Below are positions 6,673-8,826 of a stretch of DNA of 64,000 bases, piece by piece. How positions within the stretch are numbered: position 1 is the stretch's first letter; every line of letters begins with the position of its first letter. The stretch is from assembly GCA_019459455.1 (NCBI GenBank), contig JAIBEX010000021.1, positions 62,001-126,000 on the forward strand, written 5' to 3'. The position numbers and the translations under genes are program-made. The DNA is from Weeksellaceae bacterium. Its GTDB lineage: Bacteria > Bacteroidota > Bacteroidia > Flavobacteriales > Weeksellaceae. A model generated the notes under the pieces. The model did no database searches. It saw only the letters and a program-made list of their open reading frames with translations, and was not told where the DNA came from.

Positions 6673-7143
6673 ATGAATTATCAGTTAGATGACATCGACA
6701 AGAAAATCCTTGACTTCCTTGTAAAAAATACCAGAATGCCCTTTACAGAAATCGCCAAACAGATGGATGTTTCGGCAGGAACCATCCACGTCAGGGTTAA
6801 GAAAATGGAGGATGCAGGAATTATACTGGGATCTTCTTTAAGTATTGACTACGGTAAACTGGATTATCATTTTACCGCATTCATCGGAATTCTGCTTACC
6901 AAATCCAACCGTACCCAGGAAGTACTAAAGGAACTCTCTACGATACCGAATGTGGTGGAAGCCAGTGTGATTTCCGGTAAATACAATATCTTCTGTAAAG
7001 TACGGGCTAAAAACACAGAGGATGCCAAGAGAATCATCTATATGATTGATGACATCCAGGACGTGATGAGAACGGAGAGTATGATTTCCATGGAAGAATA
7101 TTTAAGCGATAAAAACAGGCTTATCGACGCCGTGAAAATCTAA
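6673..7143 (+). CDS. Lrp/AsnC family transcriptional regulator
   Basis: This 156-residue DNA-binding regulator has the full family layout. An N-terminal winged helix (residues about 5-55, LDDIDKKILDFLVKNTRMPF then TEIAKQMDVSAGTIHVRVKKM) is followed by the RAM/AsnC ligand domain (about 65-145). Such proteins form dimers and octamers that sense amino acids. The gene has its own consensus promoter at 6597 and its own terminator at 7165, so it is monocistronic. Nothing nearby indicates its ligand, and autoregulation is common in the family but not shown here. Confidence 0.92.
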   Translation: MNYQLDDIDKKILDFLVKNTRMPFTEIAKQMDVSAGTIHVRVKKMEDAGIILGSSLSIDYGKLDYHFTAFIGILLTKSNRTQEVLKELSTIPNVVEASVISGKYNIFCKVRAKNTEDAKRIIYMIDDIQDVMRTESMISMEEYLSDKNRLIDAVKI

Positions 7144-7209: not shown

Positions 7210-7587
7210 ATGGAAAGCAAAGAATTCGCAAACGAATCGCCAAAGAAGGATTTGGGATTTATACTCTCGCTCCTCGCACTTCTGGTGTTCAGCATCATGG
7301 GAACAGGGGTGGATGTGGACCAGTATCTCCAGCATACAGAACTGAAGATTCCAAAGTGGTATTTCTACATCATCTTTTCTGTAGATGTACTGATATTGCT
7401 GTCGCTCGTGCTTATTTTCTTTTACAGAAAGATAGGCGTTGTTCTGTTCCCGCTGTTGGTAGGTGCACATTTTTATTATCACATCTATTATCTTGGTACC
7501 TTTCTTTATACGGATGTCACCTCCCTGTTCCTCTTTACAGGAATAGGACTGCTTGCTTTTATTCCAAAATGGCAGTTTTTTAAATAA
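7210..7587 (+). CDS. small four-helix integral membrane protein, unknown function
   Basis: The 125-residue product begins MESKEFANESPKKD and then has about four hydrophobic segments: about 16-34 (FILSLLALLVFSIMG), 47-69 (FYIIFSVDVLILLSLVLIFF), 74-95 (IGVVLFPLLVGAHFYYH) and 103-119 (LFLFTGIGLLAFIP). No catalytic motif or known family was recognised. The Rrf2 regulator starts 11 bases after its stop, so the two are probably cotranscribed. The ATG at 7174 would add 12 residues but lies in the upstream terminator stem. The near-consensus TATTTTTA just before the chosen ATG may be its -7 box. Confidence 0.7.
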   Translation: MESKEFANESPKKDLGFILSLLALLVFSIMGTGVDVDQYLQHTELKIPKWYFYIIFSVDVLILLSLVLIFFYRKIGVVLFPLLVGAHFYYHIYYLGTFLYTDVTSLFLFTGIGLLAFIPKWQFFK

Positions 7588-7598
7588 TTCCGTGGACC

Positions 7599-8030
7599 AT
7601 GTTTTCTAAAGCCTGCGAATACGCGATAAAAGCGGCGATTTATGTGGCAAAGCAAAGCCTTCAGAAAGAACTGGTGAATGTAAAACAGGTGGCCCAATCG
7701 ATTGATGCACCTGTGGCCTTTACTGCGAAGATCCTGCAGCAGCTTAACCGCGTTAATATCCTGGAGTCCGTTCGAGGTAAGCATGGCGGTTTTGCGTTCG
7801 CTGAGGACCGGCAGAAGGAAACCATGATCATTGATCTCGTAACACTCTTTGACGGTGACGGCCTCTTCACCAACTGCGGGTTGGGCCTTAGCAAATGTTC
7901 TTCAGAAAATCCATGTCCCGTGCACGATGATTTTAAGATCGTTCGCGATAATCTGGAGGCCATGACGCGCAAATATTCCTTCTATGACCTTGCTGTAAAA
8001 ACGGAAAACGGCCTTGCCTGGCTGAAATAA
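7599..8030 (+). CDS. Rrf2 family transcriptional regulator with three-cysteine cluster site
   Basis: The 143-residue product has an Rrf2 winged helix (residues 1-75: CEYAIKAAIYVAK, then VRGKHGGFAFA in the wing). It ends with Cys93, Cys100 and Cys106 spaced C-x6-C-x5-C, the place where IscR and NsrR bind an iron-sulfur cluster. It is therefore likely to sense nitric oxide, oxygen or Fe-S status. The adjacent downstream gene is the NO/Fe-S repair protein Ric, with a palindrome over its promoter, which favours an NsrR-like role. That link is inferred from position. It follows the small membrane protein gene by 11 bases. Confidence 0.9.
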   Translation: MFSKACEYAIKAAIYVAKQSLQKELVNVKQVAQSIDAPVAFTAKILQQLNRVNILESVRGKHGGFAFAEDRQKETMIIDLVTLFDGDGLFTNCGLGLSKCSSENPCPVHDDFKIVRDNLEAMTRKYSFYDLAVKTENGLAWLK

Positions 8031-8048
8031 AATTTTTATTATTAAATA

Positions 8049-8062
8049 GGATAAATTTGTCC
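8049..8062 (+). promoter_or_regulatory. candidate Rrf2 operator (palindrome) over the ric promoter
   Basis: GGATAAATTTGTCC is a 14-base palindrome with one mismatched pair (T against G). It covers the -33 box of the ric promoter. A second half-site TTTGTCC lies at 8084-8090 over the -7 box, and outer arms ATAGGA (8046-8051) and TCCTAT (8088-8093) are inverted, giving the region overall dyad symmetry. Repression by the neighbouring Rrf2 protein is inferred. Confidence 0.5.
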
Positions 8063-8087
8063 GAATTAAAAATATTGCCTATTTTTG
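8056..8087 (+). promoter_or_regulatory. Bacteroidetes-type promoter of ric
   Basis: TTTG at 8056-8059, a 20-base spacer and TATTTTTG at 8080-8087 match both consensus boxes. The ric ATG lies 25 bases after the -7 box. Both boxes overlap half-sites of the palindrome described at 8049. Confidence 0.75.
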
Positions 8088-8112
8088 TCCTATAATTTTA
8101 AAATAAAGTACA

Positions 8113-8826
8113 ATGTTGACCAAAGAAAAAACAATAGGCGATTTCGTTGCCGAAGATTTCAGAACTGCAGAAGTTTTTAAAAAATACCATATCGATTTCT
8201 GCTGCAAAGGCGGAAGAACGGTAGAAGAAGCGTGCGAAAAGAAAAATGTAAACCCGGAAGACATCTATAAAGAACTGGACGAGGTCGCGAACAGAAAAGC
8301 TGCAGACATCGATTTCAATTCCTGGCCGTTGGATTTACTGGCCGATTATGTGGAGAAGACCCATCACCGGTATGTAGAAGAAAAGTCGGCAATGCTTATT
8401 CCGTATTTAAATAAATTGTGCAAAGTTCACGGTGACAGACATCCGGAACTTTTTGAAATCAATGAACTTTTCCTGGGTAGTGCACAGGATTTGGCTGCTC
8501 ACATGAAAAAAGAGGAACTTATCCTTTTCCCGTTCATTAAGAAAATGGTGGAAGCCAAAAGAACTGGTGAGGGATTGGAATCACCAGGTTTCGGAACAGT
8601 AGAAAACCCTGTTGCCATGATGAAAGAGGAACACGAAGCCGAAGGGGACCGCTTTGTAAAGATTTCCGAACTCACCAACAGTTACCAGTTTCCAGAGGAT
8701 GCCTGCGGAACGTACCAAGTCACCTTTAAAATGCTGGAAGATTTCGAAAACGACCTTCACAAACACATTCACCTGGAAAATAACATCCTCTTCCCGAAAG
8801 CGATTGCGATGGAGAAAACATTTTAA
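8113..8826 (+). CDS. ric: iron-sulfur cluster repair di-iron protein Ric (ScdA/YtfE)
   Basis: Ric restores iron-sulfur centres damaged by nitric oxide or oxidants. The 237-residue protein has the ScdA N-terminal domain (about 5-60) with the paired cysteines Cys30-Cys31 in DFCCKGG. A hemerythrin-like four-helix domain (about 75-230) follows, whose likely di-iron ligands include His84/85, His130, Glu134, His174, Glu177 and the HIHLEN segment at 218-223. Length and order match the family. The gene has its own promoter with an operator-like palindrome and its own terminator, and follows the Rrf2 regulator by 82 bases, so it is probably induced by nitrosative stress. Confidence 0.93.
   Translation: MLTKEKTIGDFVAEDFRTAEVFKKYHIDFCCKGGRTVEEACEKKNVNPEDIYKELDEVANRKAADIDFNSWPLDLLADYVEKTHHRYVEEKSAMLIPYLNKLCKVHGDRHPELFEINELFLGSAQDLAAHMKKEELILFPFIKKMVEAKRTGEGLESPGFGTVENPVAMMKEEHEAEGDRFVKISELTNSYQFPEDACGTYQVTFKMLEDFENDLHKHIHLENNILFPKAIAMEKTF

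Follow-up and report, generated by a model that had tools for sequence, protein, structure and literature searches.

The question raised by this locus is whether a palindrome lying over the promoter of ric, a gene for Fe-S cluster repair, is the operator of the Rrf2-family regulator encoded just upstream, and what that regulator might sense. NsrR is the Rrf2-family, NO-sensing [Fe-S] repressor of E. coli, Neisseria, Nitrosomonas, Bacillus and Streptomyces, and the initial annotation of the locus, made from the sequence alone, had proposed an NsrR-like NO or Fe-S switch for ric. The window referred to below is the whole stretch of DNA that was analysed, 64,000 nucleotides from a Weeksellaceae bacterium (contig JAIBEX010000021.1, positions 62,001 to 126,000). 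The genes of the locus are:

6673–7143, forward strand: Lrp/AsnC-family regulator, a syntenic neighbour and at most a candidate member of the switch
7213–7587, forward strand: small membrane protein of 124 aa, with no Pfam or NCBIfam match, ending 11 nt before rrf2
7599–8030, forward strand: rrf2-family regulator of 143 aa (PF02082, 77 bits, cut-off 30; TIGR00738, 77.3 bits, cut-off 73.3)
8113–8826, forward strand: ric, ScdA/YtfE-type di-iron Fe-S cluster repair protein of 237 aa (TIGR03652, 245 bits, cut-off 205; ScdA_N and hemerythrin domains)

The small membrane protein gene is probably co-transcribed with rrf2. Its product is 54–86% identical and syntenic in 29 relatives of two genera (that of the window and Kaistella), the gene is also kept before rrf2 in several other named Weeksellaceae, and the protein may be a new partner in the response to NO.

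The elements between rrf2 and ric were located as follows:

8044–8067, forward strand: 24-bp operator AAATAGGATAAATTTGTCCGAATT, from the alignment of 30 ric promoters, pattern matches in relatives and recurrence beside rrf2 outside the family
8049–8062, forward strand: palindromic core GGATAAATTTGTCC, with one mismatched pair in seven
8056–8059, forward strand: −33 element TTTG, within the operator
8080–8087, forward strand: −7 element TATTTTTG (TAnnTTTG) of the ric promoter
8084–8090, forward strand: TTTGTCC, the second half-site of the initial annotation, overlapping the −7 box

The pairing of TTTG with TAnnTTTG is the Bacteroidetes-type promoter consensus. Here the two elements are 20 nt apart, and the full −33/−7 pattern has only four occurrences in the window, both strands summed; the sequence thus bears out both the promoter of ric and the near-perfect palindrome over its −33 box that had been described. 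Although GGAYAAATTTRTCC has a single exact copy in the whole 2.59-Mb genome, palindromicity alone is common: the window holds 117 14-mers with one mismatched pair or none, and for a perfect palindrome with up to two mismatches 0.55 matches were expected by chance and one was seen. On the evidence of the window by itself it would be taken for chance, and it is comparison across genomes that makes it convincing.

For this comparison the rrf2–ric intergenic stretch was read out in relatives. In the 30 aligned ric promoters the operator has a mean column identity of 93%, against 55% in the 45 nt upstream, so that the palindrome is conserved at the ric promoters of relatives. The TAnnTTTG box is present at the −7 position in all 30, and its distance from TTTG is 19–22 nt throughout and exactly 20 nt in 22 of them. 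The conserved element has 24 bp (8044–8067), longer than the 14-bp core originally marked. It reads AATTmGGATAAATTTGTCCGAATT in these promoters, and the family consensus is AATTmGGAyAAATTTrTCCkAATT. Two further elements of the initial annotation did not survive the alignment. Its second half-site is mostly −7 box and recurs in four of the 30 promoters, most of the others having TTTGTA, while the inverted outer arms ATAGGA and TCCTAT occur together in one of the 30, that of the window. Both are, as far as the alignment tells, chance resemblances.

Whether the operator goes with the gene or with the regulator can be seen where the two are separated. In G084 and G174 a distance of 17 kb separates ric from rrf2; in both genomes the operator stands before ric (L127, L081), and none was found behind rrf2 (L030, L031). 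Of 57 family genomes that have an rrf2 ortholog, 43 contain a site for the 24-mer with up to three mismatches, and of 57 that lack one, 11 do, counts that are not independent, as the family comparison is dominated by the genus Kaistella; a reversed-pattern control gave sites in four genomes with the ortholog and in one without. Several sites in the 11 ortholog-less genomes lie at a more distant rrf2 (L096, L098, L099), at ric (L094) or at nirK (L095), and the other 14 ortholog-bearing genomes had no site within three mismatches of the 24-mer. By the evidence of these positions, the operator goes with the gene that is regulated and is linked to this Rrf2.

These genome searches used patterns with mismatches, and some matches were discarded. 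Several exact 14-mer matches in ortholog-less genomes, mostly GGATAAATTTATCC, fall at promoters of unrelated genes or inside coding genes such as the neighbour of ftsZ in genus g21. L056, L102, L103 and L140 are among the matches situated within open reading frames, which were taken as chance. A separate case is Riemerella anatipestifer (L153), which has an rrf2 ortholog (59%) with neither ric behind it nor an operator nearby, either by decay or through other targets.

The comparison was extended to the phylum by scanning 84,980 species genomes with an alignment of the Rrf2 protein. The best 80 loci span Weeksellaceae, Flavobacteriaceae, Saprospiraceae, Chitinophagales and Cytophagales. A site matrix trained on Weeksellaceae sites only, applied to 250 bp up- and downstream of rrf2, found a site beside rrf2 in 52 of the 64 loci outside Weeksellaceae (49 upstream, 29 downstream); 12 of the 64 had no site near rrf2. 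Matrices with symmetrically permuted columns gave a mean of 0.6 loci, with one permutation, presumably nearly the same matrix, reaching 40. Nearly all upstream sites start 53–74 nt before the rrf2 start codon, mostly 60–68 nt, and a TAnnTTTG box follows 42 of the 78 sites, mostly at 19–21 nt. An independent, order-wide search with a degenerate palindrome gave seven genomes outside the family, at least six with the site at rrf2 (the exception being L229), and its reversed-pattern control gave no matches. Judged by these comparisons, the palindrome is a real, conserved DNA switch that stands beside the same Rrf2 regulator across Bacteroidota. The simplest reading of the near-fixed distance before rrf2 is autoregulation, which the lineage of the window would, again on the simplest reading, have lost, its rrf2 following the small membrane-protein gene at 11 nt.

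The genes behind rrf2 in the best 80 loci are mostly ric, and otherwise hmp (NF009805, 511 bits), truncated globins, large COX1/NorB-like proteins and others. In seven loci (L159, L162, L178, L181, L192, L193, L208) a protein of about 600 aa starting with TENWxxSPGxxGT replaces ric beside rrf2; that of L159 belongs to the CcoN/COX1 superfamily and is possibly an unusual NO reductase or oxidase. In Flavobacteriaceae the surroundings of rrf2 and ric repeatedly include a conserved protein of some 165 aa (L163–L165, L168, L170, L175, L184–L186, L188, L194, L195, L098), whose His and Glu residues form a hemerythrin-like pattern but which has no match in Pfam. A degenerate half-operator, ATAAAGGATAAAAAGGTCTTAAAA, was seen 12–16 nt behind rrf2 in L163, L170, L172, L175, L183 and others, its left half fitting the operator and its right half not.

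Within the family, the search for the motif in relatives found it at promoters of NO and denitrification genes as well, the list comprising ric, nirK, norCB, azurin and rrf2. The operator precedes nirK in 24 loci, a few tens of bases from the start codon (the nirK call rests on TIGR02376, 353 bits, for a representative and on near-identical protein starts or tblastn for the others). It also precedes, at distances in the same range, azurin (L133, TIGR02695), a DUF2249 protein (L090), an alginate-export-type porin (L124) and a second rrf2 paralog (L107, L113, L115, L122, L126, L132, L137). This paralog, starting MLSKTCEYALRAM, shares the Cys/His pattern of the window's Rrf2 and is preceded by an operator copy of its own, and the two regulators may compete for one operator.

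In the genome of the window, the 24-mer with up to three mismatches occurs at two places, before ric and before norC, and no Fe-S assembly (isc/suf) site was seen at that threshold. The second site (G000:C1:18427-18450) has three mismatches and no clear −33 box, and about 11 nt separate it from the norC-norB start codon; the products of these two genes have NorC and NorB among solved structures (3o0r, 4xyd) as their best matches. Before norCB of a sister species (G053) the 14-bp core is perfect, and a TACATTTG box follows 20 nt downstream. By profile search rrf2 is the sole PF02082 gene of the window's genome, so that if an Rrf2 protein reads both the ric and the norC sites it must be this one, and the same protein probably controls norCB there.

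The nirK promoters of Kaistella have, in addition, a conserved TGATAAAACTCA box of Crp/Fnr-like type (TGA-N6-TCA) upstream of the −33 region. It lies about 30–40 nt upstream of the operator start in L079, L109–L112, L114, L116, L120, L123, L125, L128, L129, L134–L136 and L143, and suggests a second, activating input at nirK.

The regulator itself was rightly recognized as an Rrf2 protein by the initial annotation, which counted three cysteines in it; there are four, C6, C93, C100 and C106. TIGR00738 is matched by 48 of 48 relatives, and an AlphaFold2 model (pLDDT 91) has the winged-helix Rrf2 fold, with CymR, RsrR, NsrR and IscR as the best PDB fold matches. The pattern CX6CX5CX2H (C93-X6-C100-X5-C106-X2-H109) is invariant in 80 of 80 relatives, and position 7 is Glu in 79 of 80. 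The cluster ligands of ScNsrR are C93, C99 and C105 with Asp8 of the partner subunit, and those of E. coli IscR are C92, C98, C104 and His107 (PMC5411485). Since E7 aligns with Asp8 of NsrR (phmmer alignment) and H109, three residues past the third Cys, corresponds to the IscR ligand His107, the two candidates for the fourth ligand are equally placed by sequence.

Assignment as an NsrR or IscR ortholog was rejected, as the curated cut-offs are missed by far: 32.6 bits against 182 for the NsrR equivalog profile NF008240 and 40.4 bits against 207.55 for the IscR profile TIGR02010. The best equivalog model, also below its cut-off, is the SUF regulator (64 bits), followed by IscR and RirA, all above NsrR, and by profile search and fold together the protein is about equidistant from RsrR, CymR, IscR and NsrR. 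On profile and alignment evidence it is best described as an Rrf2 subfamily of its own, for which an NsrR-like function is supported and NsrR orthology is not; the functional likeness is claimed because of the targets.

The reading that accounts best for these observations, and that we hold to be likely with good confidence, is that the adjacent Rrf2 protein is an NsrR-like NO/Fe-S repressor of Bacteroidota and that it has the 24-bp palindrome as its operator. From the conservation and positions of the operator, the target genes and the linkage to rrf2, we infer the binding, the cluster, the sensing of NO and the sign of regulation. The Rrf2 dimer would carry an Fe-S cluster held by C93, C100 and C106 with either H109 or E7 of the partner. 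Loaded with the cluster and bound to the operator, it would cover the ric −33 box and block RNA polymerase; exposure to NO or cluster loss would release it, and ric would be expressed for the repair of damaged Fe-S centres. Its targets in relatives would be nirK, azurin and rrf2 itself, to which neighbourhood adds hmp and NO-reductase-like genes.

Two operator placements, both of which would block the promoter, are envisaged: at ric and rrf2 the TTTR within the operator serves as the −33 element, and at nirK the TAnnTTTG included in the operator, GGA-TAAATTTG-TCC, serves as the −7 element, with the FNR/CRP-like box upstream. It is from this overlap with the −33 box (ric, rrf2) or the −7 box (nirK) that a repressor is argued. 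The mismatched T/G pair in GGATAAATTTGTCC would give the transcribed orientation exactly its TTTG and TAnnTTTG promoter letters; at many sites of Flavobacteriaceae TTTA stands in place of TTTG.

Other explanations were weighed against this one. That the palindrome is an accident of an AT-rich promoter was suggested by the frequency of such palindromes in the window and by a match count at the chance level, and is refuted by its conservation in 30 promoters and about 50 loci of other families, far above controls; its probability is now negligible. It is also improbable, if less extremely so, that some other factor, such as an NO or oxygen regulator of the Crp/Fnr type, binds the palindrome, and that the linkage of the palindrome to rrf2 reflects co-regulation rather than binding by Rrf2. 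The NO regulator otherwise known from Bacteroides, HcpR2, is a Crp/Fnr protein (PMC1274295), and the additional FNR/CRP-like box at nirK might be taken to point the same way, but the operator does not resemble a Crp/Fnr site and is found next to that box, outside it. Moreover, it tracks the Rrf2 subfamily phylum-wide at a near-fixed distance before the rrf2 start, which is a pattern of autoregulation.

More serious, though still unlikely, is an Rrf2 protein acting as an Fe-S or iron-status sensor of the IscR, SufR or RirA type, with ric under Fe-S homeostasis and not directly under NO. The order of the profile scores, in which the SUF-regulator, IscR and RirA models all exceed NsrR, fits such a sensor, as does H109 at the position of the IscR ligand His107 (PMC5411485). 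The alignment of E7 with the NsrR ligand Asp8 is a counterpart to the latter, and the remaining targets, nirK, norCB, azurin, hmp and globins, concern the handling of nitrite and NO rather than Fe-S assembly, for which the window's own genome offers no further site within three mismatches of the 24-mer.

The NsrR-like switch put forward by the initial annotation is thus supported by the conservation of the operator and by its targets, and Bacteroidota very probably have, on this comparative evidence, an NsrR-like NO response with its own DNA code. A more specific version, which we favour somewhat less than its contrary, has a separate Bacteroidota Rrf2 subfamily acquiring NO control independently of NsrR, with operator halves doubling as −33 or −7 elements so that promoters could be shut by one sequence at either of two places; in denitrifying Kaistella, two paralogs would share that operator.

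Soils, sewage and the sea all harbour abundant Bacteroidota, and many of the members examined in this analysis have nirK or NO-reductase genes. With operator and regulator defined, the regulons that serve nitrite reduction, defence against NO and the repair of Fe-S centres could be predicted phylum-wide, and the operator is a short DNA sequence open to testing. No NsrR/Rrf2 NO regulon in Bacteroidota, Flavobacteria or Kaistella was found in the open-access literature, subscription journals and RegPrecise lying outside the scope of that search, and the novelty of a Bacteroidota NsrR-type switch is accordingly provisional. Rodionov et al. treated Bacteroides under HcpR2 only (PMC1274295).

The system shares with HcpR2 (Bacteroides, Porphyromonas) an NO-related regulation in the same phylum; it differs in protein family and in motif (GTAACnnnnGTTAC for HcpR2), and HcpR2 controls mostly hcp only (PMC1274295). 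The resemblance to E. coli IscR (C92, C98, C104, H107) lies in the Rrf2 fold and the C...C...C-X2-H pattern, whereas the spacing is CX6C rather than CX5C, the targets are NO/nitrite genes with no isc/suf site seen within three mismatches of the 24-mer, and the IscR profile score is 40 against 208 bits. The closest parallel is NsrR, with which the protein has in common the Rrf2 fold and three conserved cysteines (invariant in 80 of 80). Its sequence lies far under the NsrR model cut-off, has CX6C where ScNsrR has CX5C (C93, C99, C105), and has Glu7 in place of Asp8. The DNA sites differ too, as the initial annotation had remarked: a 24-bp, even-length palindrome, GGAyAAATTTrTCC at its core, stands against the published gATGyAT-N5-ATrCATc (PMC1274295) or the 23-bp S. 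coelicolor site. As in NsrR systems (PMC1274295, PMC9268430), the predicted regulon concerns NO and nitrite and includes ric/ytfE, hmp, norB and nirK, with hmp and the globins here by neighbourhood only, and the operator lies over promoter elements, sometimes with an FNR site upstream. The arrangement at nirK, with the TGATAAAACTCA box of Crp/Fnr type upstream of the operator, resembles that of enterobacterial hcp, which according to Rodionov et al. has an Fnr site upstream and an NsrR site downstream (PMC1274295).
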